From assembly GCA_964034945.1 (NCBI GenBank), contig OZ035960.1, positions 70,745,085 through 70,809,084 of the forward strand: a stretch of DNA of 64,000 nucleotides, read 5' to 3'. The DNA is from Chrysopilus asiliformis (Eukaryota > Arthropoda > Insecta > Diptera > Rhagionidae). Within the stretch, counting starts at the first letter, position 1, and the number at the start of each line of letters is the position of its first letter. This document shows positions 10,021-53,431 of this stretch, in pieces. The position numbers were made by a program, and so were the translations under genes. The notes beneath the pieces were generated by a model. It saw only the letters and a list, made by a program, of their open reading frames with translations, was not told the origin of the DNA and did no database searches.

Positions 10021-10021
10021 T

Positions 10022-18390: not shown

Positions 18391-18394
18391 AGTT

Positions 18395-19212
18395 TACCGC
18401 AACAGCTTGAGGGGGGTCATGGGATTTTGAGATTAGTGACTGTCTGGGTCCTACCGGGAACCGTAATTTTCATGTCGCATCGTCGGGTATAGGGTTTCTG
18501 CTAGAGAAATTCGTAACTTTGTACACCAATCCTTCAGATTTCATCACGTCTGGCAATTTTTCCGTAAGGATAACATGATTATGCTTCCTTTATTCTTCAA
18601 TGTTTTGTTCAGTTGTAAATAATAAATTCACTTGAGTTCAAGTCTAAACAGTCCATGATGGTATCCGAAGTGACTTGTGATATGGATTCGACAAAGCATC
18701 CGGTACTATATTTAAGAACCCTTTACGATACTCTATCTCAAAATTGAAACACTGCAGTTTGAGGCCAAGCGCCCCGTCAAATCATGTTGCTTCATCAGCC
18801 ACATCACGCCACCATGATCTGTTATTATCTTAAATGGCTTTCCCTCGACATAGGCCCTAAACTTTTTGATTTGCAAAATCGCTGCTAAGCATTCTAACTT
18901 GGTCTCTGAGTTGTTTATCTGTACCGCATTTAACTTTTGTGAAACAAAATCTATTGGCTCTTCATTCCCTTCCCCGTCCTTCTGGCACAATACTCCACCA
19001 ATCCCGACTTATATTGGATAATGAAAGGTTTTCCAAAGTCTGGGTGGCAAAGAACCGAAGCGGACGTTAATGCACGCTTTAATTTCTCAAAAGCCAATCG
19101 TGTGTCTTCCGTGAATACTTATTTTTTTTTGATTTTTTAAATGTCTCTGTAATGAGCCATTGTTTCCAGAAAGCGTCCTTGAGATCTTGTATATGTAAAG
19201 TGTATCTTGCTA
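18395..19212 (-). pseudogene. pol: Gypsy pol relic 2, downstream part (late RT, RNase H, linker)
   Basis: Reading 19212 downward: a block with DLKDAFW (RT motif B region), then the RT/RNase H connection (LAFEKLKRALTSASVLCHPDFG), RNase H (FVSQKLNAVQ, TKLECLAA, ITDHGGVMWLM), and VPDALS near 18690, then a degraded linker to about 18395. It has several frameshifts (about 18755 and 19000) and stops. The continuation of the same gene in the upstream direction is at 40423-41090; the two parts are separated by the 21.2 kb insertion. Confidence 0.85.
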
Positions 19213-19258
19213 ACGCCCCACTATGTGGTCAAAGTGCCATTCGGCGGCCAAAAATACA
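19213..19258 (+). repeat. Left TIR of the 21 kb element
   Basis: Pairs with 40378-40422 in inverted orientation. There are about seven mismatches over 45 bp, mostly in the outer ten bases. Confidence 0.88.
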
Positions 19259-19843
19259 AATTTTGAGTCCTGCCTTTGAAGGATTTCGGTTATGTCATTG
19301 CGTTGAGAATTCTTAGGAACCTAGAAATCCAAAAGGACACTCTCCTGGGACAAGTAATTTCCGAACGCCATGGGGTCAAAGTTGGTAAAATTTCTGGTTT
19401 TTTCGAATTTTCAACAAATTTTTTGAAATTTATTAAGTCACTTAGTACAGAAAGATCGATTTTATCATCAACCTGAGGACATATTTAGGCAATTATAATA
19501 AAAATTAAAAATTTGTAGTACATTTTTTTTCTTAAAATTGTTAGCCCGGAATACTGGGCATTCTAAAAATATTATTTTTTTCGCGAAATTTTGTATATAT
19601 ATGGCTCTGCAAAATCTGATCCGGCTTGATCCGGTCAGGTGTAAGTTGGAAATGATGGCCAAGGTCAATACCTTTCAAAATATCCATATTTCATCTGCTA
19701 CTACCTGTAACTCTGGTCACCGTAAACAAAAGTCTGATTTTTTACATATTAGTTTTTAAAAAATGTCTTACTTTGTCACAACTATGGACAAAGATATTTC
19801 GTCTAATACGCTAGGAAATTGTTTTAATTACTTTTAGTATACA
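19259..19843. other. Left interior of the 21 kb element
   Basis: AT-rich, no convincing coding frame. It does not match the right interior beyond the TIR. Nothing more can be said. Confidence 0.4.
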
Positions 19844-22302
19844 GTACCAGGAAGACCGAGCCATGCTCGGCGACCTCAAAATCCTACTTTTGCTGATTTT
19901 TGGGGAAAAACTAAGTTCACATTATCTTTACAGAGCCTTTCCAGAGTTTTTTAAATTCCCGACCTAGAAAGCTAGAACTAAAACTAACGCGCGATAACAA
20001 AATTTCATAGAAATCGGTTGAGTGGTTATTGAGTAATCGCTGTCACCGATTTTTGAAACGTTGTTTTGAGATATTAGGTGAGGATTATCGAGGGGAGGCA
20101 AAAGCCCGGTTTGTAGTGAAAAAATCGAAAGCCCTTAGCCCCCTTAGTGATACTGTAAAGTTTCATTAAGATCGGTGCACCCAATTCGAAGATACCGGGC
20201 GAGGGGTATCGAGGAGAGGGAAAAGTCAGGTTTGTAGTGGAAAAATCGAAAGCCCCTAGCCCCCTTAGTAATACTGTAAAGTTTCATTAAGATCGGACCA
20301 CCCAATTCGAAGATACCAGGCGAGGGGTATCGAGGGGAGGGAAAAGTCAGGTTTGTAGTGGGAAAATCGAAAGCCCTTAGCCCCCTTAGTGATACTGTAA
20401 AGTTTCATTAAGATCGGACCACCCAATTCGAAGATACCAGGCGAGGGGTATCGAGGGGAGGGAAAAGTCAGGTTTGTAGTGGAAAAATCGGAAGCCATTA
20501 GCCTCCTTAGTGATACTGTAAAGTTTCATTAAGATCGGTCCACCCAATTCGAAGATACCAGGCGAGGGGTATCGAGGAGAGGGAAAAGTCAGGTTTGTAG
20601 TGGAAAAATCGAAAGCCCCTAGCCCCCTTAGTAATACTGTAAAGTTTCATTAAGATCGGACCACCCAATTCGAAGATACCAGGCGAGGGATATCGAGGGG
20701 AGGGAAAAGTCAGGTTTGTAGTGAAAAAATCGGAAGCCCTCAGCCCCCTTAGTAATACTGTAAAGTTTCATTAAGATCGGACCGCCCAATTCGAAGATAC
20801 CAGGCGAGGGGTATCGAGGAGAGGGAAAAGTCAGGTTTGTAGTGAAAAAATCGGAAGCCCTCAGCCCCCTCAGTAATACTGTAAAGTTTCATTAAAATCG
20901 GACCACCCAATTCGAAGATACCAGGCGAGGGGTATCGAGGGGAGGGAAAAGTCAGGTTTGTAGTGGTAAAATCGGAAGCCATTAGCCCCCTTAGTGATAC
21001 TGTAAAGTTTCATTAAGATCGGACCACCCAATTCGAAGATACCAGGCAAGGGGTATCGAGGGGAGCGAAAAGTCAGGTTTGTAGTTGGAAAATCGAAAGC
21101 CCTTAGCTCCTTTAGTAATACTGTAAAGTTTCATTAAGATCGGTCCACCCAATTCGAAGATACCAGGCGAGGGGTATCGACGGGAGCGAAAAGTCAGGTT
21201 TGTAGTGGGAAAATCGAAAGCCCTAGCCCCCTTAGTAATACTGTAAAGTTTCATTAAGATCGGACCACCCAATTCGAAGATACCAGGCGAGGGGTATCGA
21301 GGGGAGGGAAAAGTCAGGTTTGTAGTGGGAAAATCGAAAGCCCCTAGCCCCCTTAGTGAAACTGTAAAGCTTCATTAAGATCGGTCCACCCAATTCGAAG
21401 ATACCAGGCGAGGGGTATCGAGGGGAGGGAAAAGTCAGGTTTGTAGTGGGAAAATCGAAAGCCCTAGCCCCCTTAGTAATACTGTAAAGTTTCATTAAGA
21501 TCGGACCACCCAATTCGAAGATACCAGGCGAGGGGTATCGAGGGGAGGGAAAAGTCAGGTTTGTAGTGGAAAAATCGAAAGCCCCTAGCCCCCTTAGTGA
21601 AACTGTAAAGTTTCATTAAGATCGGACCACCCAATTCGAAGATATCAGGCGAGGGGTATCGAGGAGAGGGAAAAGTCTGGTTTGTAGTGGAAAAATCGAA
21701 GGCCCCTAGCCCCCTTAGTAATACTGTAAAGTTTCATTAAGATCGGTCCACCCAATTCGAAGATACCAGGCGAGGGGTATCGAGGGGAGGGAAAAGTCAG
21801 GTTTGTAGTGGGAAAATCGAAAGCCCTTAGCCCCTTTAGTAATACTGTAAAGTTTCATTAAGATCGGACCACCCAATTCGAAGATACCAGGCGAGGGGTA
21901 TCGAGGGGAGGGAAAAGTCAGGTTTGTAGTGGTGAAATCGAAGGCCCCTAGCCCCCTTAGTAATACTGTAAAGTTTCATTAAGATCGGTCCACCCAATTC
22001 GAAGATACCAGGCGAGGGGTATCGAGGGGAGGGAAAAGTCAGGTTTGTAGTGGAAAAATCGAAAGCCCTTAGCCCCTTTAGTAATACTGTAAAGTTTCAT
22101 TAAAATCGGACCACCCAATTCAAAGATAACAAGCGAGGGGTATCGAAGGGGAATTTTCTCAGGGGTGAGACCTATCTAGATCGATTTCTTGTCCCCGAAA
22201 ATCCCTAACCACCAAGTTTCGTGAAAATCGTTAGGCGGGTTTTCGAGATCGTTTATGCAGACAGACAGACAGACAAACATTCCTCGTATTATATTATAGT
22301 AC

Positions 22303-23162
22303 CAGGAAAACCGAGCCATGCTCGGCCACCTCAAAGTTGTCCTTTTGCTGAAATTTTGGAGAGGTGAAACCTATCGATCTACATAGGTCTCTGTTAGAAA
22401 AAAGCACGCAATATGTTAGAACAACACACACGGTGAGACGATACCTTTCTTACATAATTAAACTTAATATGACGAATATATTTGGGTATAATGTTGATTT
22501 TTTTTATATAAAAACATCAGGTTTGTAGTGGAAAAGTCAGGTTTGTAGTGGAAAAATCGAAAGCCATTAGCCCCCTTAGTGATACTGTAAAGTTTCATTA
22601 AGATCGGTCCACCCAATTCGAAGATACCAGGCGAGGGGTATCGAGGAGAGGGAAAAGCCAGGTTTGTAGTGGAAAAATCGAAAGCCCCTAGCCCCCTTAG
22701 TAATACTGTAAAGTTTCATTAAGATCGGACCACCCAATTCGAAGATACCAGGCAAGGGGTATCGAAGGGAGGGAAAAGTCAGTTTTGTAGTGGAAAAATC
22801 GAAAGCCATTAGCCCCCTTAGTGATACTGTAAAGTTTCATTAAGATCGGTCCACCCAATTCGAAGATACCAGGCGAGGGGTATCGAGGGGAGGGAAAAGT
22901 CAGGTTTGTAGTGGAAAAATCGAAAGCCCTTAGCCCCTTTAGTAATACTGTAAAGTTTCATTAAAATCGGACCACCCAATTCAAAGATAACAGGCGAGGG
23001 GTATCGAAGGGGAATTTTCTCAGGGGTGAGACCTATCTAGATCGATTTCTTGTCCCCGAAAATCCCTAACCACCAAGTTTCGTGAAAATCGTTAGGCGGG
23101 TTTTCGAGATCGTTTATGCAGACAGACAGACAGACAAACATTCCTCGTATTATATTATAGTA
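22303..23162 (+). repeat. 860-bp complete element unit embedded in satellite B
   Basis: Runs from one head (taccaggaaaaccgagccat) to the base before the next head at 23163, holding the AT-rich 5' part with gttagaacaacacacacggt, a few monomers and the tail. The same head recurs at 23163 and 28313 with nearly identical sequence, so these are duplicated blocks, not independent insertions. Confidence 0.85.
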
Positions 23163-25896
23163 CCAGGAAAACCGAGCCATGCTCGGCCACCTCAAAGTTG
23201 TCCTTTTGCTGAAATTTTGGAGAGGTGAAACCTATCGATCTACATAGGTCTCTGTTAGAAAAAAGCACGCAATATGTTAGAACAACACACACGGTGAGAC
23301 GATACCTTTCTTACATAATTAAACTTAATATGACGAATATATTTGGGTATAATGTTGATTTTTTTTATATAAAAACATCAGGTTTGTAGTGGAAAAGTCA
23401 GGTTTGTAGTGGAAAAATCGAAAGCCATTAGCCCCCTTAGTGATACTGTAAAGTTTCATTAAGATCGGTCCACCCAATTCGAAGATACCAGGCGAGGGGT
23501 ATCGAGGAGAGGGAAAAGTCAGGTTTGTAGTGGAAAAATCGAAAGCCCCTAGCCCCCTTAGTAATACTGTAAAGTTTCATTAAGATCGGACCACCCAATT
23601 CGAAGATACCAGGCGAGGGGTATCGAGGAGAGGGAAAAGTCAGGTTTGTAGTGGAAAAATCGAAAGCCCCTAGCCCCCTTAGTAATACTGTAAAGTTTCA
23701 TTAACATCGGACCACCCAATTCGAAGATACCAGGCGAGGGATATCGAGGGGAGGGAAAAGTCAGGTTTGTAGTGAAAAAATCGGAAGCCCTCAGCCCCCT
23801 TAGTAATACTGTAAAGTTTCATTAAGATCGGACCACCCAATTCGAAGATACCAGGCGAGGGGTATCGAGGGGAGGGAAAAGTCAGGTTTGTAGTGAAAAA
23901 ATCGGAAGCCCTCAGCCCCCTCAGTAATACTGAAAAGTTTCATTAAAATCGGACCACCCAATTCGAATATACCAGGCGAGGGGTATCGAGGGGAGGGAAA
24001 AGTCAGGTTTGTAGTGGAAAAATCGGAAGCCATTAGCCCCCTTAGTAATACTGTAAAGTTTCATTAAGATCGGACCACCGAATTCGAAGATACCAGGCAA
24101 GGGGTATCGAGGGGAGCGAAAAGTCAGGTTTGTAGTGGAAAAATCGAAAGCCCTTAGCCCCCTTAGTCATACTGTAAAGTTTCATTAAGATCGGTCCACC
24201 CAATTCGAAGATACCAGGCGAGGGGTATCGAGGGGAGGGAAAAGTCAGGTTTGTAGTGGAAAATCGAAAGCCTCTAGCCCCCTTAGTAATACTGTAAAGT
24301 TTCATTAAGATCGGACCACCCAATTCGAAGATACCAGGCGAGGGGTATCGAGGGGAGCGAAAAGTCAGGTTTGTAGTGAAAAAATCGGAAGCCCTCAGCC
24401 CCCTTAGTAATACTGTAAAGTTTCATTAAGATCGGACCACCCAATTCGAAGATACCAGGCGAGGGGTATCGAGGGGAGGGAAAAGTCAGGTTTGTAGTGA
24501 AAAAATCGGAAGCCCTCAGCCCCCTCAGTAATACTGAAAAGTTTCATTAAAATCGGACCACCCAATTCGAATATACCAGGCGAGGGGTATCGAGGGGAGG
24601 GAAAAGTCAGGTTTGTAGTGGAAAAATCGGAAGCCATTAGCCCCCTTAGTAATACTGTAAAGTTTCATTAAGATCGGACCACCGAATTCGAAGATACCAG
24701 GCAAGGGGTATCGAGGGGAGCGAAAAGTCAGGTTTGTAGTGGAAAAATCGAAAGCCCTTAGCCCCCTTAGTCATACTGTAAAGTTTCATTAAGATCGGTC
24801 CACCCAATTCGAAGATACCAGGCGAGGGGTATCGAGGGGAGGGAAAAGTCAGGTTTGTAGTGGAAAATCGAAAGCCTCTAGCCCCCTTAGTAATACTGTA
24901 AAGTTTCATTAAGATCGGACCACCCAATTCGAAGATACCAGGCGAGGGGTATCGAGGGGAGCGAAAAGTCAGGTTTGTAGTGGAAAATCTAAAGCCCTTA
25001 GCCCGCTTAGTGATACTGTAAAGTTTCATTAAGATCGGACCACCCAATTCGAAGATATCAGGCGAGGGGTATCGAGGAGAGGGAAAAGTCAGGTTTGTAG
25101 TGGAAAAATCGAAGGCCCCTAGCCCCCTTAGTAATACTGTAAAGGTTCATTAAAATCGGACCACCCAATTCGAATATACCAGGCGAGGGGTATCGAGGGG
25201 AGGGAAAAGTCAGGTTTGTAGTGAAAAAATCGGAAGCCATTAGCCCCCTTAGTAATACTGTAAAGTTTCATTAAGATCGGACCACCGAATTCGAAGATAC
25301 CAGGCAAGGGGTATCGAGGGGAGCGAAAAGTCAGGTTTGTAGTGGAAAAATCGAAAGCCCTTAGCCCCCTTAGTGATACTGTAAAGTTTCATTAAGATCG
25401 GTCCACCCAATTCGAAGATACCAGGCGAGGGGTATCGAGGGGAGGGAAAAGTCAGGTTTGTAGTGATAAATCGGAAGCCATTAGCCCCCTTAGTGATACT
25501 GTAAAGTTTCATTAAGATCGGTCCACCCAATTCGAAGATACCAGGCGAGGGGTATCGAGGGGAGCGAAAAGTCAGGTTTGTAGTGGGAAAATCGAAAGGC
25601 CTTAGCTCCTTTAGTAATACATGCTTATTCACAAAAGCTATTATTGCTTGTTAATACCCATAACAATTGTTTAAATAGAAATCGGTATTCACATTTCACT
25701 TTGCTTGCTATGAACTTTCGATAATATTGTTAAGCTAAAAATTGTCAAATAAAACCGTATTCAGAGTGCACTATTGCTTGTTAGAAATGGTTAAAAGTGT
25801 TGTTACGATAACAAAAATAAATTTTAGTTGTTTGGGAAGAAATATATTTTATTTTTCAAGCAAAAAAAGTGATTTTAGTAAAACACATTTAAATGC

Positions 25897-26341
25897 AACA
25901 CGCTTAAATGCAAAACTCGAGTAATTGTACGCCATATTTGTGCCTAGAGGATTTTAAAGCATTTTATACGGATAAATTAAACACGCTTAATTGCAATACT
26001 TGCTTAAATGCAACCATTTTCATATCCCAAAAGTATAAATTACATGAAATTTTACACGCTTAAATGCACATGTGCAAAAATAAAATGTAATCACACCAAA
26101 AAAAAGTGATTTTTGTTATTTTTATGTGATAAAATGAATTCTTAATTAGATTCTTTGTTTTTGTGTAGCCTAATTGAATTTAAATGTTTATTCCAGGAAT
26201 ATTAAAGTTGCATGTTTATCTTTGGCTCGCATAATTGCACATTAATGTATATTTCTCCGTGCTTACGTGCTACGTATAAATGCAAAACACGGATAAATGC
26301 ACATGAAATTCTGCGAAGTTCGATCTGCATTTAAGCGTGTT
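25897..26341. mobile_element. Small TIR element with aacacgcttaaatgca ends
   Basis: Inverted 16-bp ends at 25897-25912 and 26326-26341. The motif cgcttaaatgca or a close variant recurs inside several times, which suggests subterminal repeats. Non-coding. Confidence 0.6.
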
Positions 26342-26364
26342 CTACTGAGTTGTTTTTTTAAAGA

Positions 26365-26661
26365 CATATCGTCGGTGATAGTGCAATACCGCGTATGAGC
26401 AGTTTGTAAATACCGCGTATCTACATTTTGAATGTTTTACGGGGGGAAGAAAAAGTTTGATATTTCTAACCCTTTAAAGAGATTTTCTCATCTAAGATTT
26501 TTTGGGACCTCATTATATGATTGTCATAATGAGGTCCCAAAAAATCTTTTTAAAGGGTTAGAAATATCAAACTTTTTCTTCCCCCGTAAAACATTCAAAA
26601 TGTAGATACCCGGTATTTACAAACTGCTCATACGCGGTATTGCACTATCACCGACGATATG
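26365..26661. mobile_element. Fold-back element with approximately 140-bp arms
   Basis: Near-perfect palindrome from catatcgtcggtgatagtg (26365) to its complement ending at 26661, centred near 26513. The left arm has about 12 extra bases close to the centre. Non-coding. Confidence 0.85.
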
Positions 26662-29600
26662 TTGGATTACCACGTGAATTACCAAGTCAACTTCTTCGCG
26701 ATACCAGCGATCCGTTTTCCATAGAAGAAAACAGTTTTAAAAAATATTTATCGTCTCCCCGCAATGCAATACAACAATCCGCGAATGCAATACAACAATC
26801 CCCGAATGCAATACAACAATCCCTGAATGCAATACAACTGCAACTATTAAAATAATTCACAAAACTGTTGCCATAACAACACAACGAACATTTTTAACGA
26901 AACTTTTTAACAAGCAAAATTGTGATTACCATTTTCGTTATGGATTGCTATGAAATTTATTGTTACTTAACAATATTGTTAACTAACAATAAATTTGTGA
27001 ATAAGCATGTACTGTAAAGTTTCATTAAGATCGGTCCACCCAATTCGAAGATACCAGGCGAGGGGTATCGAGGGGAGGGAAAAGTCAGGTTTGTAGTGGG
27101 AAAATCGAAAGCCCTAGCCCCCTTAGTAATACTGTAAAGTTTCATTAAGATCGGACCACCCAATTCGAAGATACCAGGCGAGGGGTATCGAGGGGAGCGA
27201 AAAGTCAGGTTTGTAGTGGAAAATCTAAAGCCCTTAGCCCGCTTAGTGATACTGTAAAGTTTCATTAAGATCGGACCACCCAATTCGAAGATATCAGGCG
27301 AGGGGTATCGAGGAGAGGGAAAAGTCAGGTTTGTAGTGGAAAAATCGAAGGCCCCTAGCCCCCTTAGTAATACTGTGAAGTTTCATTAAGATCGGACCAC
27401 CCAATTCGAAGATACCAGGCGAGGGGTATCGAGGGGAGGGAAAAGTCAGGTTTGTAGTGGGAAAATCGAAAGCCATTAGCCCCCTTAGTGATACTGTAAA
27501 GTTTCATTAAGATCGGTCCACCCAATTCGAAGATACCAGGCGAGGGGTATCGAAGGGAGGGAAAAGTCAGTTTTGTAGTGGAAAAATCGAAAGCCATTAG
27601 CCCCCTTGGTGATACTGTAAAGTTTCATTAAGATCGGTCCACCCAATTCGAAGATACCAGGCGAGGGGTATCGAGGAGAGGGAAAAGTCAGGTTTGTAGT
27701 GGAAAAATCGAAAGCCCCTAGCCCCCTTAGTAATACTGTAAAGTTTCATTAAGATCGGACCACCCAATTCGAAGATACCAGGCGAGGGGTATCGAGGAGA
27801 GGGAAAAGTCAGGTTTGTAGTGGAAAAATCGAAAGCCCCTAGCCCCTTTAGTAATACTGTAAAGTTTCATTAAGATCGGTCCACCCAATTCGAAGATACC
27901 AGGCGAGGGGTATCGAGGGGAGGGAAAAGTCAGGTTTGTAGTGGTAAATCGGAAGCCATTAGCCCCCTTAGTGATACTGTAAAGTTTCATTAAGATCGGA
28001 CCACCCAATTCGAAGATACCAGGCGAGGGATATCGAGGGGAGGGAAAAGTCAGGTTTGTAGTGAAAAAATCGGAAGCCCTCAGCCCCCTCAGTAATACTG
28101 TAAAGTTTTATTAAAATCGGACCACCCAATTCAAAGATAACAGGCGAGGGGTATCGAAGGGGAATTTTCTCAGGGGTGAGACCTATCTAGATCGATTTCT
28201 TGTCCCCGAAAATCCCTAACCACCAAGTTTCGTGAAAATCGTTAGGCGGGTTTTCGAGATCGTTTATGCAGACAGACAGACAGACAAACATTCCTCGTAT
28301 TATATTATAGTACCAGGAAAACCGAGCCATGCTCGGCCACCTCAAAGTTGTCCTTTTGCTGAAATTTTGGAGAGGTGAAACCTATCGATCTACATAGGTC
28401 TCTGTTAGAAAAAAGCACGCAATATGTTAGAACAACACACACGGTGAGACGATACCTTTCTTACATAATTAAACTTAATATGACGAATATATTTGGGTAT
28501 AATGTTGATTTTTTTTATATAAAAACATCAGGTTTGTAGTGGAAAAGTCAGGTTTGTAGTGGAAAAATCGAAAGCCATTAGCCCCCTTAGTGATACTGTA
28601 AAGTTTCATTAAGATCGGTCCACCCAATTCGAAGATACCAGGCGAGGGGTATCGAGGAGAGGGAAAAGTCAGGTTTGTAGTGGAAAAATCGAAAGCCCCT
28701 AGCCCCCTTAGTAATACTGTAAAGTTTCATTAAGATCGGACCACCCAATTCGAAGATACCAGGCGAGGGGTATCGAAGGGAGGGAAAAGTCAGTTTTGTA
28801 GTGGAAAAATCGAAAGCCATTAGCCCCCTTAGTGATACTGTAAAGTTTCATTAAGATCGGTCCACCCAATTCGAAGATACCAGGCGAGGGGTATCGAGGA
28901 GAGGGAAAAGTCAGGTTTGTAGTGGACAAATCGAAAGCCCCTAGCCCCCTTAGTAATACTGTAAAGTTTCATTAAGATCGGTCCACCCAATTCGAAGATA
29001 CCAGGCGAGGGGTATCGAGGAGAGGGAAAAGTCAGGTTTGTAGTGGGAAAATCGAAAGCCCCTAGCCCCTTTAGTAATACTGTAAAGTTTCATTAAGATC
29101 GGTCCACCCAATTCGAAGATACCAGGCGAGGGGTATCGAGGAGAGGGAAAAGTCAGGTTTGTAGTGGAAAAATCGAAAGCCCCTAGCCCCCTTAGTAATA
29201 CTGTAAAGTTTCATTAACATCGGACCACCCAATTCGAAGATACCAGGCGAGGGATATCGAGGGGAGGGAAAAGTCAGGTTTGTAGTGAAAAAATCGGAAG
29301 CCCTCAGCCCCCTTAGTAATACTGTAAAGTTTCATTAAGATCGGACCACCCAATTCGAAGATACCAGGCGAGGGGTATCGAGGGGAGGGAAAAGTCAGGT
29401 TTGTAGTGAAAAAATCGGAAGCCCTCAGCCCCCTCAGTAATACTGAAAAGTTTCATTAAAATCGGACCACCCAATTCGAATATACCAGGCGAGGGGTATC
29501 GAGGGGAGGGAAAAGTCAGGTTTGTAGTGGAAAAATCGGAAGCCATTAGCCCCCTTAGTAATACTGTAAAGTTTCATTAAGATCGGACCACCGAGTTCGA

Positions 29601-32600
29601 AGATACCAGGCAAGGGGTATCGAGGGGAGCGAAAAGTCAGGTTTGTAGTTGGAAAATCGAAAGCCCTTAGCCCCCTTAGTCATACTGTAAAGTTTCATTA
29701 AGATCGGTCCACCCAATTCGAAGATACCAGGCGAGGGGTATCGAGGGGAGGGAAAAGTCAGGTTTGTAGTGGGAAAATCGAAAGCCTCTAGCCCCCTTAG
29801 TAATACTGTAAAGTTTCATTAAGATCGGACCACCCAATTCGAAGATACCAGGCGAGGGGTATCGAGGGGAGCGAAAAGTCAGGTTTGTAGTGGGAAAATC
29901 GAAAGCCCTTAGCTCCTTTAGTAATACTGTAAAGTTTCATTAAGATCGGTCCACCCAATTCGAAGATACCAGGCGAGGGGTATCGAGGGGAGGGAAAAGT
30001 CAGGTTTGTAGTGGGAAAATCGAAAGCCCTAGCCCCCTTAGTAATACTGTAAAGTTTCATTAAGATCGGACCACCCAATTCGAAGATACCAGGCGAGGGG
30101 TATCGAGGGGAGGGAAAAGTCAGGTTTGTAGTGGAAAAATCGAAAGCCCTTAGCCCCTTTAGTAATACTGTAAAGTTTCATTAAGATCGGACCACCCAAT
30201 TCGAAGATACCAGGCGAGGGGTATCGAGGGGAGCGAAAAGTCAGGTTTGTAGTGGAAAATCTAAAGCCCTTAGCCCGCTTAGTGATACTGTAAAGTTTCA
30301 TTAAGATCGGACCACCCAATTCGAAGATATCAGGCGAGGGGTATCGAGGAGAGGGAAAAGTCAGGTTTGTAGTGGAAAAATCGAAGGCCCCTAGCCCCCT
30401 TAGTAATACTGTAAAGTTTCATTAAGATCGGTCCACCCAATTCGAAGATACCAGGCGAGGGGTATCGAGGGGAGGGAAAAGTCAGGTTTGTAGTGAAAAA
30501 ATCGAAAGCCCTTAGCCCCTTTAGTAATACTGTAAAGTTTCATTAAGATCGGACCACCCAATTCGAAGATACCAGGCGAGGGGTATCGAGGAGAGGGAAA
30601 AGTCAGGTTTGTAGTGGGAAAATCGAAAGCCCCTAGCCCCTTTAGTAATACTGTAAAGTTTCATTAAGATCGGACCACCCAATTCGAAGATACCAGGCGA
30701 GGGGTATCGAGGGGAGGGAAAAGTCAGGTTTGTAGTGGAAAATCTAAAGCCCTTAGCCCCCTTAGTGATACTGTAAAGTTTCATTAAGATCGGTCCACCC
30801 AATTCGAAGATACCAGGCGAGGGGTATCGAGGAGAGGGAAAAGTCAGGTTTGTAGTGGAAAAATCGGAAGCCCCTAGCCCCCTTAGTAATACTGTAAAGT
30901 TTCATTAAGATCGGACCACCCAATTCGAAGATACCAGGCGAGGGATATCGAGGGGAGGGAAAAGTCAGGTTTGTATTGAAAAAATCGGAAGCCCTCAGCC
31001 CCCTTAGTAATACTGTAAAGTTTCATTAAGATCGGACCACCCAATTCGAAGATACCAGGCGAGGGGTATCGAGGGGAGGGAAAAGTCAGGTTTGTAGTGA
31101 AAAAATCGGAAGCCCTCAGCCCCCTCAGTAATACTGAAAAGTTTCATTAAAATCGGACCACCGAATTCGAAGATACCAGGCAAGGGGTATCGAGGGGAGC
31201 GAAAAGTCAGGTTTGTAGTGGAAAAATCGAAAGCCATTAGCCCCCTTAGTGATACTGTAAAGTTTCATTAAGATCGGTCCACCCAATTCGAAGATACCAG
31301 GCGAGGGGTATCGAGGAGAGGGAAAAGTCAGGTTTGTAGTGGGAAAATCGAAAGCCCCTAGCCCCCTTAGTAATACTGTAAAGTTTCATTAAGATCGGAC
31401 CACCCAATTCGAAGATACCAGGCGAGGGATATCGAGGGGAGGGAAAAGTCAGGTTTGTATTGAAAAAATCGGAAGCCCTCAGCCCCCTTAGTAATACTGT
31501 AAAGTTTCATTAAGATCGGGCCACCCAATTCGAAGATACCAGGCGAGGGGTATCGAGGGGAGGGAAAAGTCAGGTTTGTAGTGAAAAAATCGGAAGCCCT
31601 CAGCCCCCTCAGTAATACTGAAAAGTTTCATTAAAATCGGACCACCCAATTCGAAGATACCAGGCGAGGGGTATCGAGGGGAGGGAAAAGTCAGGTTTGT
31701 AGTGGAAAAATCGGAAGCCATTAGCCCCCTTAGTAATACTGTAAAGTTTCATTAAGATCGGACCACCGAATTCGAAGATACCAGGCAAGGGGTATCGAGG
31801 GGAGCGAAAAGTCAGGTTTGTAGTGGAAAAATCGAAAGCCCTTAAGCCCCCTTAGTGATACTGTAAAGTTTCATTAAGATCGGTCCACCCAATTCGAAGA
31901 TACCAGGCGAGGGGTATCGAGGAGAGGGAAAAGTCAGGTTTGTAGTGGAAAAATCGAAAGCCCCTAGCCCCCTTAGTAATACTGTAAAGTTTCATTAAGA
32001 TCGGACCACCCAATTCGAAGATACCAGGCGAGGGGTATCGAAGGGAGGGAAAAGTCAGTTTTGTAGTGGGAAAATCGAAAGCCATTAGCCCCCTTAGTGA
32101 TACTGTAAAGTTTCATTAAGATCGGACCACCCAATTCGAAGATACCAGGCGAGGGGTATCGAAGGGAGGGAAAAGTCAGTTTTGTAGTGGAAAAATCGAA
32201 AGCCATTAGCCCCCTTAGTGATACTGTAAAGTTTCATTAAGATCGGTCCACCCAATTCGAAGATACCAGGCGAGGGGTATCGAGGAGAGGGAAAAGTCAG
32301 GTTTGTAGTGGACAAATCGAAAGCCCCTAGCCCCCTTAGTAATACTGTAAAGTTTCATTAAGATCGGACCACCCAATTCGAAGATACCAGGCGAGGGGTA
32401 TCGAGGAGAGGGAAAAGTCAGGTTTGTAGTGGGAAAATCGAAAGCCCCTAGCCCCTTTAGTAATACTGTAAAGTTTCATTAAGATCGGACCACCCAATTC
32501 GAAGATACCAGGCGAGGGGTATCGAGGGGAGGGAAAAGTCAGGTTTGTAGTGGAAAATCTAAAGCCCTTAGCCCCCTTAGTGATACTGTAAAGTTTCATT

Positions 32601-35600
32601 AAGATCGGTCCACCCAATTCGAAGATACCAGGCGAGGGGTATCGAGGAGAGGGAAAAGTCAGGTTTGTAGTGAAAAAATCGAAAGCCCTTAGCCCCCTTA
32701 GTGATACTGTAAAGTTTCATTAAGATCGGTCCACCCAATTCGAAGATACCAGGCGAGAGGTATCGAGGAGAGGGAAAAGTCAGGTTTGTAGTGGAAAAAT
32801 CGAAAGCCCCTAGCCCCCTTAGTAATACTGTAAAGTTTCATTAAGATCGGACCACCCAATTCGAAGATACCAGGCGAGGGGTATCGAGGGGAGGGAAAAG
32901 TCAGGTTTGTAGTGGAAAAATCGGAAGCCATTAGCCCCCTTAGTAATACTGTAAAGTTTCATTAAGATCGGACCACCGAATTCGAAGATACCAGGCAAGG
33001 GGTATCGAGGGGAGCGAAAAGTCAGGTTTGTAGTGGAAAAATCGAAAGCCCTTAGCCCCCTTAGTGATACTGTAAAGTTTCATTAAGATCGGTCCACCCA
33101 ATTCGAAGATACCAGGCGAGGGGTATCGAGGAGAGGGAAAAGTCAGGTTTGTAGTGGAAAAATCGAAAGCCCCTAGCCCCCTTAGTAATACTGTAAAGTT
33201 TCATTAAGATCGGACCACCCAATTCGAAGATACCAGGCGAGGGGTATCGAAGGGAGGGAAAAGTCAGTTTTGTAGTGGAAAAATCGAAAGCCATTAGCCC
33301 CCTTAGTGATACTGTAAAGTTTCATTAAGATCGGACCACCCAATTCGAAGATACCAGGCGAGGGGTATCGAGGAGAGGGAAAAGTCAGGTTTGTAGTGGG
33401 AAAATCGAAAGCCCCTAGCCCCTTTAGTAATACTGTAAAGTTTCATTAAGATCGGACCACCCAATTCGAAGATACCAGGCGAGGGGTATCGAGGGGAGGG
33501 AAAAGTCAGGTTTGTAGTGGAAAATCTAAAGCCCTTAGCCCCCTTAGTGATACTGTAAAGTTTCATTAAGATCGGTCCACCCAATTCGAAGATACCAGGC
33601 GAGAGGTATCGAGGGGAGCGAAAAGTCAGGTTTGTAGTGAAAAAATCGAAAGCCATTAGCCCCCTTAGTGATACTGTAAAGTTTCATTAAGATCGGTCCA
33701 CCCAATTCGAAGATACCAGGCGAGGGGTATCGAGGAGAGGGAAAAGTCAGGTTTGTAGTGGACAAATCGAAAGCCCCTAGCCCCCTTAGTAATACTGTAA
33801 AGTTTCATTAAGATCGGACCACCCAATTCGAAGATACCAGGCGAGGGATATCGAGGGGAGGGAAAAGTCAGGTTTGTATTGAAAAAATCGGAAGCCCTCA
33901 GCCCCCTTAGTAATACTGTAAAGTTTCATTAAGATCGGGCCACCCAATTCGAAGTTACCAGGCGAGGGGTATCGAGGGGAGGGAAAAGTCAGGTTTGTAG
34001 TGAAAAAATCGGAAGCCCTCAGCCCCCTCAGTAATACTGAAAAGTTTCATTAAAATCGGACCACCCAATTCGAAGATACCAGGCGAGGGGTATCGAGGGG
34101 AGGGAAAAGTCAGGTTTGTAGTGGAAAAATCGGAAGCCATTAGCCCCCTTAGTAATACTGTAAAGTTTCATTAAGATCGGACCACCGAATTCGAAGATAC
34201 CAGGCAAGGGGTATCGAGGGGAGCGAAAAGTCAGGTTTGTAGTGGTAAAATCGAAAGCCCTTAGCCCCCTTAGTGATACTGTAAAGTTTCATTAAGATCG
34301 GACCACCCAATTCGAAGATACCAGGCGAGGGGTATCGAGGAGAGGGAAAAGTCAGTTTTGTAGTGGAAAAATCGAAAGCCCCTAGCCCCCTTAGTAATAC
34401 TGTAAAGTTTCATTAAGATCGGACCACCCAATTCGAAGATACCAGGCGAGGGGTATCGAAGGGAGGGAAAAGTCAGTTTTGTAGTGGAAAAATCGAAAGC
34501 CATTAGCCCCCTTAGTGATACTGTAAAGTTTCATTAAGATCGGACCACCCAATTCGAAGATACCAGGCGAGGGGTATCGAAGGGAGGGAAAAGTCAGTTT
34601 TGTAGTGGAAAAATCGAAAGCCATTAGCCCCCTTAGTGATACTGTAAAGTTTCATTAAGATCGGTCCACCCAATTCGAAGATACCAGGCGAGGGGTATCG
34701 AGGAGAGGGAAAAGTCAGGTTTGTAGTGGACAAATCGAAAGCCCCTAGCCCCCTTAGTAATACTGTAAAGTTTCATTAAGATCGGACCACCCAATTCGAA
34801 GATACCAGGCGAGGGGTATCGAGGAGAGGGAAAAGTCAGGTTTGTAGTGGGAAAATCGAAAGCCCCTAGCCCCTTTAGTAATACTGTAAAGTTTCATTAA
34901 GATCGGACCACCCAATTCGAAGATACCAGGCGAGGGGTATCGAGGGGAGGGAAAAGTCAGGTTTGTAGTGGAAAATCTAAAGCCCTTAGCCCCCTTAGTG
35001 ATACTGTAAAGTTTCATTAAGATCGGTCCACCCAATTCGAAGATACCAGGCGAGGGGTATCGAGGAGAGGGAAAAGTCAGGTTTGTAGTGAAAAAATCGA
35101 AAGCCCTTAGCCCCCTTAGTGATACTGTAAAGTTTCATTAAGATCGGTCCACCCAATTCGAAGATACCAGGCGAGAGGTATCGAGGAGAGGGAAAAGTCA
35201 GGTTTGTAGTGGAAAAATCGAAAGCCCCTAGCCCCCTTAGTAATACTGTAAAGTTTCATTAAGATCGGACCACCCAATTCGAAGATACCAGGCGAGGGGT
35301 ATCGAGGGGAGGGAAAAGTCAGGTTTGTAGTGGAAAAATCGGAAGCCATTAGCCCCCTTAGTAATACTGTAAAGTTTCATTAAGATCGGACCACCGAATT
35401 CGAAGATACCAGGCAAGGGGTATCGAGGGGAGCGAAAAGTCAGGTTTGTAGTGGAAAAATCGAAAGCCCTTAGCCCCCTTAGTGATACTGTAAAGTTTCA
35501 TTAAGATCGGTCCACCCAATTCGAAGATACCAGGCGAGGGGTATCGAGGAGAGGGAAAAGTCAGGTTTGTAGTGGAAAAATCGAAAGCCCCTAGCCCCCT

Positions 35601-37497
35601 TAGTAATACTGTAAAGTTTCATTAAGATCGGACCACCCAATTCGAAGATACCAGGCGAGGGGTATCGAAGGGAGGGAAAAGTCAGTTTTGTAGTGGAAAA
35701 ATCGAAAGCCATTAGCCCCCTTAGTGATACTGTAAAGTTTCATTAAGATCGGTCCACCCAATTCGAAGATACCAGGCGAGGGGTATCGAGGAGAGGGAAA
35801 AGTCAGGTTTGTAGTGGACAAATCGAAAGCCCCTAGCCCCCTTAGTAATACTGTAAAGTTTCATTAAGATCGGACCACCCAATTCGAAGATACCAGGCGA
35901 GGGGTATCGAGGAGAGGGAAAAGTCAGGTTTGTAGTGGGAAAATCGAAAGCCCCTAGCCCCTTTAGTAATACTGTAAAGTTTCATTAAGATCGGACCACC
36001 CAATTCGAAGATACCAGGCGAGGGGTATCGAGGGGAGGGAAAAGTCAGGTTTGTAGTGGAAAATCTAAAGCCCTTAGCCCCCTTAGTGATACTGTAAAGT
36101 TTCATTAAGATCGGTCCACCCAATTCGAAGATACCAGGCGAGAGGTATCGAGGAGAGGGAAAAGTCAGGTTTGTAGTGGACAAATCGAAAGCCCCTAGCC
36201 CCCTTAGTAATACTGTAAAGTTTCATTAAGATCGGACCACCCAATTCGAAGATACCAGGCGAGGGGTATCGAGGAGAGGGAAAAGTCAGGTTTGTAGTGA
36301 AAAAATCGAAAGCCCTTAGCCCCTTTAGTAATACTGTAAAGTTTCATTAAGATCGGTCCACCCAATTCGAAGATACCAGGCGAGGGGTATCGAGGAGAGG
36401 GAAAAGTCAGGTTTGTAGTGGTAAAATCGAAAGCCCCTAGCCCCCTTAGTAATACTGTAAAGTTTCATTAAGATCGGACCACCCAATTCGAAGATACCAG
36501 GCGAGGGATATCGAGGGGAGGGAAAAGTCAGGTTTGTAGTGAAAAAATCGGAAGCCCTCAGCCCCCTTAGTAATACTGTAAAGTTTCATTAAGATCGGAC
36601 CGCCCAATTCGAAGATACCAGGCGAGGGGTATCGAGGGGAGGGAAAAGTCAGGTTTGTAGTGAAAAAATCGGAAGCCCTCAGCCCCCTCAGTAATACTGT
36701 AAAGTTTCATTAAAATCGGACCACCCAATTCGAAGATACCAGGCGAGGGGTATCGAGGGGAGGGAAAAGTCAGGTTTGTAGTGGAAAAATCGGAAGCCAT
36801 TAGCCCCCTTAGTGATACTGTAAAGTTTCATTAAGATCGGACCACCCAATTCGAAGATACCAGGCGAGGGGTATCGAGGGGAGGGAAAAGTCAGGTTTGT
36901 AGTGGTAAATCGGAAGCCATTAGCCCCCTTAGTGATACTGTAAAGTTTCATTAAGATCGGACCACCCAATTCGAAGATACCAGGCGAGGGGTATCGAGGG
37001 GAGGGAAAAGTCAGGTTTGTAGTGGTAAATCGGAAGCCATTAGCCCCCTTAGTGATACTGTAAAGTTTCATTAAGATCGGACCACCCAATTCGAAGATAC
37101 CAGGCGAGGGATATCGAGGGGAGGGAAAAGTCAGGTTTGTAGTGAAAAAATCGGAAGCCCTCAGCCCCCTCAGTAATACTGTAAAGTTTTATTAAAATCG
37201 GACCACCCAATTCGAAGATAACAGGCGAGGGATATCGAAGGGGAATTTTCTCAGGGGTGAGACCTATCTAGATCGATTTCTTGTCCCCGAAAATCTCTAA
37301 CCACCAAGTTTCGTGAAAATCGTTAGGCGGGTTTTCGAGATCGTTTGTGCAGACAGACAGACAGACAAACATTCCTCGTATTATATTATAGGATATAGTA
37401 TACATAAAAGCGGAATATTTTCCGTACCAGCATACAGTGAAACCATTAAATGTCATCCATCTTGACAGTAAAACCGTTTAAAACTGATAATCTTATC

Positions 37498-38018
37498 CTA
37501 TAATATAATACGAGAAATGACTGCACGACGATCTCGAAAACCGGCCAAACGGTTTTCACGAAACTTGGTGGTAAGGGATTTTCGGGGACAAGGAATCGAT
37601 CTAGATAGGTCTCACCTCTGAGAAAATTCCCCTCGATACCCCTCGCCTGGTATCTTCGCATTGGGTGGTCCGATCTTAATGCAACTTTACAGTATTACTA
37701 CGCGGACTAAGGGCTTTCGATTTTTCCACTACAAACCTAACTTTCTCCTCCCTTCGGGGTATCGTGTCTTCGAATTACGTGAAGGTATCTTAATGAAAAT
37801 TCGCAATATTGCTAGGGAGTAAGGGTTCGCGATATGTATTCTAAAAATATCACGTTTTAGATATCTATCGGCAGCGATAAATAGTAATTACAAAACAATC
37901 AAGTTCCCTGAACCTCGTTATACGAATCATGTTGCAATTATAATCGGATTCAACTACTCAGAGACAGAGGCAGAAGGAGGATTTTGAGATCGCCGAGCAT
38001 GGCTCGGTCTTCCTGGTA
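37498..38018 (-). mobile_element. Inverted, nearly complete copy of the satellite B element
   Basis: It reads on the minus strand from head (taccaggaagaccgagccat, ending 38018) through one or two diverged monomers to the tail (ctataatataatacgag at 37498). It carries many substitutions and a gtgtcttcgaattacgtga segment absent from array monomers. It faces the main array across an approximately 100-bp spacer (37393-37497). Confidence 0.88.
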
Positions 38019-38175
38019 CTATGAATAATTAGAGCAATAAGAAATCAATATTTTAGATATACATATGTATATATTTTACAACAGAATATTAAGAAATTTA
38101 CATTAATTCGACGATTGAAAGTTATATTATCGGTGCTTTCAAGCAAGCAAGCAATAAATCCAGATAAATTCAAAT

Positions 38176-39544
38176 CAGTGTTGTGCCGCGTAGTCTACGT
38201 GATGTAGACTACACCATTGTCTACGCGTAGACTATTACTGTAGACAATGGTCTATTCTCTACGCGTAGACAATGTAGACAATCAATAAAATAAAGGATAG
38301 CTGATTTAGTTTTAAAATCTCATTTTCTTCAATTAATTTTAACATAATAAAGCACAATTTCCAGGAAGCAATCGCCAAATGCTGTAATGGAGAACTTCGG
38401 AGCAAACTTCTTTTCATGCAATCTAAGCAGCTTTTTTTAATGAAATCACATTGGATTCTAAAATCTTTTTGGAAGCTGGTAAAGCAGGTGACGGTGAGCC
38501 AGCTTCCATACCAGAAACAGGCTCCTGATGGGTTTTCAGGGCAAACATGTCCGACCTGTTGGGAGGAAATTTGGATGTGAAAACATCCCCAAAAATAATA
38601 TAATTTTGTTGTTTTTGCAGACCTTATAAGCCGAGAAATTCCAATAGGATTCAATGCTAAAAGGTCGAGTATAAACCATGAATCAGAAATGGTTCAATGG
38701 TTAAACACTAAATAGTTTATTCGCTCTGGCTTGATGAAGCTATGTTGCCTTAAACCTTATAATTCGCACAAGGTTTGTGGCATCGGAGTATAAATACTCA
38801 AATCGAGTTTTACTCCACCAAAATCCTGTAAGCCTGCGTGGAAGCTGGCAAAGCAGGCTCTGATGACGGTGAGCCAGCTTTCCATACCAGAAACAGGCTC
38901 CTGATGGGTTTTCAGGGCATACATGTCCGACCTGTTGGGGGGAAATTTGGATGTGAAAACATCCACAAAAATAATATAATATTTTGTTATATTACTTTTT
39001 GTTTTTGCAGACCTAAAGCCAAGAAATTCCAATAGGATTATTCATTGCTAGAAGGTCAAGAAAACCATGAATCAGAAATGGTTCAATGGTTAAACACATA
39101 AAATCTTTTTGCTTTACACATTTTTCAATATAACGAACCGTTTGTTTAAAAAACTGATTCATTTGTATGGGATGGCTTTGCTCATTTAAGAATATCTGTT
39201 TAATTTGTACGAAAAACACGTTTGTTTCTAGTCTTTAGCTTAATTCCGTTGAGAGTTGTCGTATTTACAGATAGACGGACATCTATACGGAAGTAATTCA
39301 AATCAAATAATATATGTTTAAATCAAATAATATATTGACCTATCAAAGGTCAGTCGATTTCGGCTTTGACAATATGACTCACTAATGACTTTGTTTTGAC
39401 AGATGTGAGAAAGTCTACATTGTCTACGCAAAGTCGACATTGTCTACGCCAATGTCTACATTGTCTACCCCAAATCGATTGTCTACGCTATTGTCTACAC
39501 TAAAGTGTAGACAATTAAAGTCTACGCGTAGAGGAACAACACTG
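38176..39544. mobile_element. hAT-type non-autonomous element, 1369 bp, 8-bp TSD
   Basis: The 8-bp duplication attcaaat flanks it at 38168-38175 and 39545-39552. Ends are inverted (cagtgttgt / acaacactg), the usual hAT end pattern. Both subterminal regions carry many tctacgcgtagac/tgtagacaat words, likely transposase binding sites. The centre contains an approximately 240-260 bp direct duplication (about 38470-38713 and 38839-39098). No transposase frame is present. Confidence 0.93.
38470..39098. repeat. Direct duplication (two approximately 240-260 bp copies) inside the hAT element
   Basis: Both copies share ccataccagaaacaggctcc, tttggatgtgaaaacatcc and a tttttgcagacc segment, then gaaatggttcaatggttaaa. 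They differ by scattered substitutions and small indels. The tttttgcag resembles a 3' splice site, so a captured gene fragment is possible but unproven. Confidence 0.75.
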
Positions 39545-39651
39545 ATTCAAATCATATGCCAAGTCCACAGCTGATTTCTATAATAGACATTACAATTGAA
39601 GAAATATGTCTGCAACAATGCATAAAGTGCTTTTCCATGGCAAGCTGATAA

Positions 39652-39934
39652 TTGAAAAAAGCATTTTACCATTTTAAAAGGGGAGCTTTCAAAAGAAGCT
39701 CAGGATTCGAAAAATAAAGACTACAGACATTTTAGACTAACCAACACTAGAAAAAACGCTAGAATCAACCAAAATGAAGATTTGATGAATATATTACTTC
39801 TATCGTCAGATCCATTTTTGGCTTCTCTGCGTTCTAAATGGACAAATGCAAAAGATGAATTGGATGACGAGGAAGATCAAGAAATCCTACAATTGTTAAA
39901 ATTCGACGTAGATGAAGACATTATTAGAATGTAA
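39652..39934 (+). pseudogene. Unidentified coding remnant, possible transposase C-terminus
   Basis: An open frame of about 93 codons without a start Met ends at TAA 39932-39934. It has amphipathic and acidic character: a segment with NARINQNEDLMNILLLSSDPF, then a tail rich in Asp and Glu. It lies about 440 bp from the right TIR of the 21 kb element, where a transposase 3' exon would be expected. I do not recognise the family. The codon pattern and absence of stops across a 280-bp AT-rich stretch suggest real ancestry. Confidence 0.5.
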
Positions 39935-40377
39935 TTTTTCCTCAACTTAATGTAATTTCAGCCATGTATATTTGTATCAAATTGTATTAAAAGAATCGTA
40001 TTAAAAAAAAGTTGTCTTTAAAAATGCTATATTTTTTTATAACATTTAAAAAACAACTTTAAAACAAAACCAAAAAAATATTACAAGAACAAATATTATA
40101 GTTTTGATTATTTCATCATATAGGGTATTAAAGTTGCTCCTATTCGATTTTGATGTACTGACGACATATGTAAAATGGCATTCTAAATATTTTCGTCATT
40201 AATGATTTTTTCTGTACGACCAACCGTTCTCGAGATTTTGGTAATTTTTGATTTCAAATGCAGATGGGTGGGGAGGGGAGAGGAGGAGGTGATCAGATTG
40301 TTAGGAAATGAAGCTTGGATATTTATCTAGCCAACAAAAAAAACCCCATTCAAAAATATTGATCCGTTCAAAAGTTA
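39935..40377. other. Non-coding right interior of the 21 kb element
   Basis: AT-rich with a gggtggggaggggagagg tract near 40265-40285. No coding feature is seen. Confidence 0.45.
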
Positions 40378-40422
40378 TGTATTTTTGGCCGCCGAAAGGC
40401 ACTTTGGCCCCATAGTGCGCCC
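40378..40422 (-). repeat. Right TIR of the 21 kb element
   Basis: On the minus strand it begins gggcgcactatggggccaaa. It lies directly next to the upstream half of the split gypsy RT. Confidence 0.88.
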
Positions 40423-41090
40423 TAGCAATCCTTCGATGTGTGGGATCGGCTAAGCGGCCTTTCGAATGACTGTATTCAGCTTCCTGGAGTCCAGGCACAG
40501 TCTGTTCTTCCTCCGCTTTTTCACCGGGACGTCTGGGGAACTCCAATAGCTGTCACTGTCCTCGATGACGTCTAACTTTAACATACGATCTAGTTTTTCA
40601 CTAATTAATGCCTGTACCGTTGTAGAGACAGGAAAAAATCGCTGTTAGATAGGTACCGAATCACCTACGTCAATTGTGTGTTCCTCTAAAGTAGTCTTTC
40701 CCAATCCCAGAATTGCGGATGTTGAAAATTTCGCAATCACACTTTGAAGTTTCTGAGATTGAGTGTCTGTCAATACGTGCATATTTTGGTCACATTTATC
40801 TACATTTAATTCAGAAAGGCTATTTACTTGGTATTTCCGGTAAGTATTTCTGGACAAATATCAAAACTTCGGCAGACATTTATCCTTAGACAAAGGGGAA
40901 GTGATAGATTTGTGAATATGAATAAAATAATTTCTCTTTGTTTATTCTTATAGGACATGGTTATCAATGTTTTGACGTGGATACGTCTTGGATTTTGGTT
41001 ATGGGGGTACAAATTAGAAAATTGGCTTGCTCCCATGATAACAAATTTGCAATCGATGATACTCGTTAATTTGTGGTGACATCCGAACTG
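40423..41090 (-). pseudogene. pol: Gypsy pol relic 2, upstream part (RT N-terminus)
   Basis: From 40857 downward the frame carries the LGKTTLEEHTIDVGD block, then a VQALISEKLDRML helix, WSSP, the CLDSRKLN motif and PIPHIEGLL at the 21 kb insertion point. In-frame stops occur at 40645-40647 (TAA) and 40450-40452 (TAG). 40860-41090 encodes further degraded sequence (IMGASQFSN) that may be the protease-RT linker. The downstream continuation is at 19212-18395. Confidence 0.85.
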
Positions 41091-41545: not shown

Positions 41546-41580
41546 ACTCAGTTCACCCAAATTCCACCTTAAAAACAAAA

Positions 41581-46805: not shown

Positions 46806-47113
46806 AAGTTTTTTTTGCACAAAAAACTTCCAGAAATAACTTTTAGAAAATAAACGTGTTCGCTTCAAGACTTTCGGTTTTGCATTTTAAAACTCTAATA
46901 CCCAATTAGTTTTTCCAGCCTCCTCATGGGCAAGCTAACTTCAGTCATAAAATATTATCATCACCGACAATGGTGAAAATCTGATCAAAATCGTTTTCGG
47001 TTTATAATTAGTGTCTCTATTTTTGTTTTAAACAGTTTTCACATACAAAAAAAAACACAAAAATCACAAAGAAAAAAATTTGTTTTAACTAAATGAAAAA
47101 ATAAATAAATTAA

Positions 47114-47505: not shown

Positions 47506-47539
<34 letters not shown>

Positions 47540-53300: not shown

Positions 53301-53431
53301 AGGGGAAGGCCGGGAAACGTCGGAGAGAGGGGAAATTAAAATGGGACCAACTAGGGAGTGAACTCTGTCATCCACCAACGTTTCAACAAAATCCATGCAA
53401 CGGCACCCAAGTACTGCGTGAACATACAGAT

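Follow-up and report, generated by a model that had tools for sequence, protein, structure and literature searches.

The locus described here lies in a 64,000-nucleotide window, the whole stretch of Chrysopilus asiliformis DNA that was analyzed, and is a nest of transposons in which several ordinary elements sit one within another. The 21.2-kb unit at its center, which has the appearance of a 'satellite transposon', is a composite. The features of the nest, and of related sequences farther along the window, are as follows.

17900..19213, minus strand: gypsy pol, downstream part (starting at DLKDAFW and including RNase H; outer boundary approximate)
19214..19218: left target duplication, CGCCC, 5 bp (by comparison of the flanks)
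19219..19266, plus strand: left TIR, beginning CACTATG (by alignment)
19844..37395, plus strand: element B1, the satellite-bearing insert
20069..37238, plus strand: 121-bp monomer array
22148..22529, plus strand: first of three B tail-to-head junctions within the array
23009..23390, plus strand: second of these junctions, with the same sequence as the first
25620..27009: inverted-repeat element in the array, inserted at TA
28159..28540, plus strand: third of these junctions, with the same sequence as the first
37494..38019, minus strand: element B2, a short inverted copy of B
38176..39544: hAT-type element within the Transib transposase remnant
39546..39677, plus strand: transposase remnant
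39656..39934, plus strand: transposase C-terminal remnant
40368..40417, minus strand: right TIR, beginning CACTATG (by alignment)
40418..40422: right target duplication, CGCCC, 5 bp (by comparison of the flanks)
40423..40900, minus strand: gypsy pol, upstream part (RT as far as HIEGLL; outer boundary approximate)
~50501..50911, plus strand: element B3, a headless B copy outside the Transib element
51118..53305, plus strand: array of 122-bp units with homology to the B monomer, outside the Transib element

A Transib-type element inside a gypsy pol gene

The outermost host is an old gypsy retrotransposon. As the initial annotation had proposed, its RT domain is split, with minus-strand pol pieces breaking at both junctions such that the right-hand piece ends in HIEGLL and the left-hand piece resumes with LARYTLHIQDLKDAFWK. 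The upstream piece matches retroviral RT chains in the PDB (best E 5.1e-5, with Ty3 at only 0.049), and the downstream fragment continues into an RNase H piece that has a Pfam match. The downstream RT piece of 44 residues has no PDB match at E 10, and Pfam returned no family for either of the two RT pieces.

The inserted unit spans 19219-40417 (21,199 bp, with boundaries drawn from this single locus) and is of the Transib type, a family related to the enzyme responsible for antibody-gene shuffling. Three features support this assignment. First, the inverted repeats previously reported at both ends are present, and each starts with an RSS-like CAC heptamer, CACTATG. The two TIRs agree at 88% of 50 columns by BLAST; a second alignment gives 45 of 50, and 37 of the first 40 positions agree without gaps. 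Their score was equalled by one of 20,000 random pairs of 60-mers taken from outside 20000-37300 and 58300-63200. Second, the unit is flanked on either side by the GC-rich 5-bp duplication CGCCC, for which the yardstick is that random 5-mer pairs matched in 355 of 200,000 draws. Third, homology to the Transib/RAG1-core transposase is evident through HzTransib (PDB 6pqn), for the C-terminal part only and in broken form. One stretch (39546-39677) corresponds to residues 367-410 (E 1.7e-5), with one internal in-frame stop and a change of frame at its end, and an open stretch (39656-39934) corresponds to residues 410-483 of 497 (E 5.5e-12), the two matches abutting at residue 410.

With the C-terminal transposase piece, a protein search found no relative at E 1e-3 (two candidates), Pfam gave no family, and a scan of viral_contigs gave 15 pattern matches of which none was confirmed; a viral_contigs scan for the TIR pattern gave no matches. 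The surviving transposase, a broken C-terminus of approximately 117 HzTransib residues, is split by the insert at 38176-39544, which we take to be of the hAT type from two traits of that family, namely an 8-bp target duplication (ATTCAAAT, at 38168-38175 and 39545-39552) and a CAG-starting TIR (here beginning CAGTGTTGT). One frame of this insert, of 91 residues, had no PDB hit at E 10. Likewise, the 39-residue piece 5' of the hAT-type insertion yielded no HzTransib residues before 367 (PDB, no hit at E 10), and no transposase match appeared in the left arm, searched in its three forward frames only (PDB, E 1).

These characters agree with what is described for relatives. A passage in PMC8289069 reports 5-bp GC-biased duplications for ProtoRAG, a preference that Transib and RAG share, and also gives CACTATG as the heptamer of ProtoRAG TR1 and notes that Transib TIRs, for example those of Hztransib, resemble the RSS heptamer. 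Like HzTransib and Drosophila transib1-4, the present element has a CAC-starting TIR of about 40-50 bp, a 5-bp GC-rich duplication and a homologous transposase C-terminus. Unlike them, it is broken and swollen by nested elements, which bring a visible backbone of approximately 1.74 kb to a total of 21.2 kb.

The 121-bp satellite and element B

Rather than being Transib sequence, the satellite belongs to a separate element, B, that is nested in the Transib element. The copy that bears the array, B1, has its own head and tail and is flanked by a 9-bp direct repeat (TAGTATACA, at 19835-19843 and 37396-37404), which by itself is moderate evidence because random 30-bp flanks shared a word of at least 9 in 28 of 4,000 draws. 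B2 carries approximately 190 bp of monomer sequence, and its two ends have no more than a 5-bp word in common, and B3 carries approximately 210 bp between 27-bp direct repeats (50474-50500 and 50912-50938), so each short copy holds fewer than two monomers. B heads lie at 19844 and 38019, tails end at 37395, 37494 and ~50907, and three tail-to-head junctions are internal to the array; head and tail are conserved at these separate places. A scan of viral_contigs for the B-tail pattern gave no matches.

The array contains 121 monomer anchors and, after its interruptions are subtracted, measures 14,631 bp, so that the satellite proper comes to about 14.6 kb rather than the 17 kb or so first estimated. 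The interruptions are the three tail-to-head junctions and the one element inserted at TA (TA at 25618-25619 and 27010-27011). The junctions are 100% identical to each other over 392 bp; the monomers average about 94.5% pairwise identity. Two stretches of 1,264 bp match exactly at a spacing of 2,418 bp (20 monomers), and the match reaches 1,676 bp if 8 mismatches are allowed. Exact blocks, the longest of them this 1,264-bp one, point to recent block duplication. The description of the array as a higher-order satellite did not survive analysis of monomer identity by lag, in which means of 0.942-0.951 at 23 of the 24 lags were interrupted only by 0.962 at lag 20 (116/120 intervals), the lag at which one block duplication of 1,676 bp lies. 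We accordingly rejected a regular higher-order repeat. The array may also be affected by assembly error.

A related array of 18 copies begins at 51118, adjoining a short B, and aligns with the B monomer at 146 of 229 identical columns. Another 122-bp family in the window (units at 13000 and 45000) showed no relation above shuffles to either the 121-bp monomer or the 51118 array, with 53 to 254 of 300 shuffles scoring equally high across eight comparisons.

The anatomy of B bears on what kind of element it might be. HINEs have a microsatellite near the 5' end and a palindrome near the 3' end. In B, a (GTCT)n run marks one end of B1 and B3, and roughly 12 nt in from the opposite terminus B1, B2 and the three junctions share a palindrome whose arms are 6 bp long. 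Both features therefore occur together in B1, the palindrome alone in B2 and the microsatellite alone in the headless B3. The tail-to-head junctions are free of filler, as would suit rolling-circle concatemers. These observations make it conceivable, though slightly less than an even bet, that B belongs among the rolling-circle Helentron-associated elements (HINE/DINE-1 type) and that its multimer arose by rolling-circle replication, as opposed to B being a target-primed retroposon, for which target duplications of variable length, a constant 3' end and 5' truncation would be expected. HINEs reportedly insert at T-rich targets without duplicating them, whereas two of the three B copies at hand end in direct repeats (9 bp in B1 and 27 bp in B3, against the 5-bp shared word of B2). 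Moreover, B3 is truncated at its head, as retroposons are, the (ACAG)n run is absent from B2, and no subterminal inverted repeat was found at the B ends, where alignments were short and weak (scores of 22 for B2 and 15 for B1, without shuffled control). The Cg_HINE elements of the Pacific oyster carry satellite-like arrays, the longest of 29.3 monomers (PMC7492417), and B resembles them in its small size and dispersed copies, in the microsatellite and the palindrome that lie near opposite ends, and in the tandem repeats at its center. It differs in its approximately 121 monomers and in the direct repeats that end B1 and B3, and, being likened by anatomy, is a candidate member.

Probable order of insertion and growth of the array

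Nested target duplications show which element sits inside which, and it follows from this nesting that Transib landed in gypsy and itself served as host to B. We consider it very probable that a Transib element entered gypsy pol, that B entered Transib, and that B then grew in tandem. The cut-and-paste element inserted into the pol gene and duplicated CGCCC, as the anatomy shows. B is dispersed, and its short copies contain less than two of the 121-bp units each. Within Transib it exists as a multimer of head-to-tail units, in which unequal exchange or replication-based block duplication would have raised the number of monomers to about 121. Part of this duplication would be very recent, to judge from the exact blocks, and growth of the array probably came mostly after the Transib insertion. 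Of the two scenarios initially offered, a single transposition event holds to the extent that a TIR-bearing DNA transposon did enter gypsy, on which TIRs, 5-bp duplication and transposase remnants agree, but the satellite is not that transposon's own bulk. The other, in which a smaller element expanded once inserted, comes close to the reading preferred here, with the satellite assigned to a separate dispersed element.

It is also possible, though improbable, that the array was already in Transib and that the whole 21-kb unit jumped into gypsy. The entire array is enclosed by the TIRs and the CGCCC duplication, and nothing in the window dates the arrival of B before or after the Transib jump. 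However, B has its own 9-bp flanking repeat in Transib and its own copies elsewhere, and so would not depend on Transib for its movement. The identical junctions and the exact repeats, up to 1,264 bp long, make part of the present length recent, the visible transposase is broken, and fly transib1-4 measure 2,167-2,883 bp in the sizes given in PMC10299278. The proposal that a DNA transposon serves as vehicle of a higher-order satellite is not borne out; the satellite resides in B, and the B family occurs elsewhere in the window without Transib. We regard as a little less probable still that Transib is a cargo transposon with B aboard, its genome copies seeding 121-bp arrays wherever they land; if true, a RAG-family cut-and-paste element would disperse a growing satellite. 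Judged by title and the start of the abstract, no Transib carrying satellite DNA is described among the matches listed in open-licence PMC.

Finally, the initial annotation implied a Tc1/mariner-like element with a TA duplication, which we reject as highly improbable. A TA does lie outside either end, and removal of the insert between single TAs leaves the gypsy frame open, but the direct repeat CGCCC, which is not part of the inverted repeat, separates each TA from its TIR, and the transposase remnant is that of Transib. The duplicated target is CGCCC, and both TAs lie outside its copies. Furthermore, the claim that the two pol pieces join through exactly one TA leaves only 24 nt between GLL and DLKD, 12 nt short of the 36 nt (12 residues) found in 8 of 9 aligned relatives, the ninth (P0004) stopping short of the motif. 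A CGCCC empty site gives 32 nt, which is nearer in length and out of frame, and therefore the gypsy copy was or became damaged.

Satellite growth inside a mobile element

The birth of satellites inside mobile elements is already known. In the review PMC9659126, DINE-TR1 and Tetris of Drosophila virilis are non-autonomous elements whose repeats gave satellite arrays, and the present case is similar by description in that the repeats of a mobile non-autonomous element are the source of a satellite; it differs from that description in that the array here takes the form of a multimer lodged within a different transposon. TE dimers have been proposed as satellite seeds (McGurk and Barbash, as summarized in PMC12628747), and head-to-tail element junctions within a tandem array are found here as well. 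Unlike in that summary, the junction itself is present threefold, unchanged, in one array.

The locus offers a snapshot of satellite growth inside a mobile element, in which one window holds short B copies of fewer than two monomers, a B multimer of approximately 121, and a related 18-copy array beside a short B. It also serves as a warning that long TIR-bounded units with internal satellite can pass for 'satellite transposons' even though they are nests.

A Transib-type element within a gypsy pol gene

The element inserted into the gypsy pol gene at 19219-40417 (21,199 bp end to end) is of the Transib type, an assignment that we base on the combination of the start of its terminal inverted repeats (TIRs), a 5-bp GC-rich duplication and a transposase. 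First, the inverted repeats of the initial annotation are genuine: by BLAST, 19219-19266 aligns with the reverse complement of 40368-40417 at 88% over 50 columns (ungapped, the first 40 bases agree at 37). Of 20,000 random 60-mer pairs, drawn with the satellite and 8-bp arrays excluded, just 1 aligned equally well. Both TIRs start with CACTATG. Second, CGCCC directly abuts both TIRs (19214-19218 and 40418-40422), and random 5-mers of the window were identical in 355 of 200,000 draws. The target duplication was previously misread; the TA copies invoked for it lie beyond these 5 bp. Passages of PMC8289069 describe ProtoRAG as ending in CACTATG with GC-biased 5-bp duplications, a bias common to Transib and RAG.

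Third, the sequence at 39656-39934 is open and matches HzTransib, the 497-residue Transib chain of PDB 6pqn, over residues 410-483 (E 5.5e-12). The preceding stretch, in a different frame and interrupted by one internal stop, has its match at residues 367-410 (E 1.7e-5); the runner-up chains in these two PDB searches had E values of 1.5 and 2. Neither the piece just before the hAT-type insert nor any of the left arm's three forward frames gave a transposase match, and residues before 367 were not found there. After removal of this insert and of B1 and B2, two copies of the nested satellite-bearing element B, the visible backbone is ~1.74 kb, and thus this Transib copy is a deletion derivative or damaged. 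For D. melanogaster transib1-4, the body of a table in PMC10299278, seen apart from its column heads, lists 2,167-2,883 and, in an adjacent column, 40-45, which we take as element and TIR length.

Features within the Transib element
22148-22529, 23009-23390 and 28159-28540: tail-to-head junctions of B that interrupt the array, identical over 392 bp
25620-27009: inverted-repeat element of 1,390 bp in the array, at TA
38176-39544: hAT-type element of 1,369 bp with an 8-bp duplication (ATTCAAAT), splitting the transposase remnant

The split gypsy gene described earlier is also sound, with minus-strand pieces that break at the two junctions. The piece at the right junction ends ...PIPHIEGLL and the left-junction piece starts LARYTLHIQDLKDAFWK. 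For the upstream piece, the matches are retroviral RT chains (best E 5.1e-5), with Ty3 a weak one (0.049); the downstream RT piece gave zero matches in PDB and Pfam, and the fragment that holds it runs on into RNase H. Of 15 candidates, nine proved to be relatives, and every one of these was aligned; eight span the site, with a GLL-to-DLKD interval of twelve residues (36 nt). The proposed single-TA junction does keep the frame open, but its 24 nt are short against these relatives, whereas the CGCCC model gives 32 nt, nearer in length and out of frame. The gypsy copy is damaged under either model, so the frame argument is not decisive; the target site is settled by the 5-bp duplication and the transposase. 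A better preserved gypsy pol fragment, with RNase H and integrase in its first frame, lies at 226-2138 (+).

Element B and its satellite

The satellite array starts and ends within B. The head of B1 (19844-37395) reads GTACCAGG followed by a CCGAGC...GCTCGG palindrome, its tail has an (ACAG)n run and ...TTATATTATAGGATA, and the nine-base direct repeat TAGTATACA flanks it at 19835-19843 and 37396-37404. Head and tail recur in B2 (37494-38019), a short copy in inverted orientation that this Transib also contains; it has ~190 bp of monomer and no clear duplication. Outside Transib, B3 (~50501-50911) carries the tail and ~210 bp of monomer between perfect 27-bp direct repeats. Beside it lies an array (51118-53305) whose 122-bp unit is homologous to the B monomer, with 146 of 229 columns identical (none of 300 shuffles scored as high). 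The satellite family therefore belongs to B and occurs without Transib, and its earlier placement in the inserted DNA transposon named the wrong element.

With a microsatellite at one end and a palindrome near the other, B resembles HINE/DINE-1 (Helentron-associated) elements, which, in the parts of PMC7492417 and PMC4067079 that describe them, are said to produce no target duplication, and which in oyster carry satellite-like arrays (PMC7492417). B differs in the direct repeats at B1 and B3, and a search of B for subterminal inverted repeats found none. On the basis of only three copies, target-primed retroposition would be a closer fit to the 9-bp and 27-bp repeats and to the copy that lacks a head.

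Other repeats in the window

A second 122-bp tandem repeat forms arrays at 12820-14032, 41901-42640 and 44895-45355. Its units at 13000 and 45000 are no more similar to the 121-bp B monomer than shuffles, so the common unit length is unexplained. A long palindrome (~41570-41870) adjoins the 41901 array and recurs at ~5445-5740 beside a diverged stretch of this repeat. The 8-bp unit AGTCTGTC and its rotations fill 58380-59503, 60472-61238 and 62206-63164 (140.6, 96 and 120 copies; 99% pure), each array being followed by related sequence.

A dispersed repeat at 4255-4864, 47096-47688, 49476-50017 and 54572-54882 (-), two copies of which are 92% identical, is similar in layout to DINE-1: close to one of its ends it carries an (ACAG)n run together with a short palindrome (ATTGCCAATCTGGCAAT). 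Helitron-like long reading frames occupy 7074-12508 (-), one with a confirmed PIF1 helicase domain and another containing a 69-bp minisatellite (11932-12314). At 6035-6978 is an element whose 204-bp inverted repeats (98.5% identical) flank a transposase-like 215-aa frame that contains a DUF4817 helix-turn-helix domain.

Growth of the array

The array contains 121 monomer anchors, spaced by 121 (97), 120 (18), 122 (1), 498 (3) and 1513 (1) bp. Tandem Repeats Finder reports 141 copies with the interruptions counted in; true satellite amounts to ~14.6 kb. Monomer pairs are ~94.5% identical whatever their distance among the 116 monomers measured, which form no repeating multimer. One 1,264-bp block has an exact second copy 2,418 bp away, and the match reaches 1,676 bp if 8 mismatches are admitted.

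The simplest growth mechanism, all steps of which we infer, would be a head-to-tail multimer of B lengthened by block duplications, some of them recent, through unequal exchange or replication slippage. For the tail-to-head start, the candidate routes are rolling-circle replication, template jumping and double insertion, of which a review (PMC12628747) lists the first and last among others. Alternatively, Transib might have been the vehicle of the satellite, with B aboard when it jumped, and nothing in the window dates the arrival of B before or after that event. This is not the simplest reading, given that B also occurs away from Transib and that some of the array length is recent.

The nesting of transposons and the birth of satellites within mobile elements are already known. 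The value of this locus is as a clear example in which the short and long states of one repeat stand side by side.
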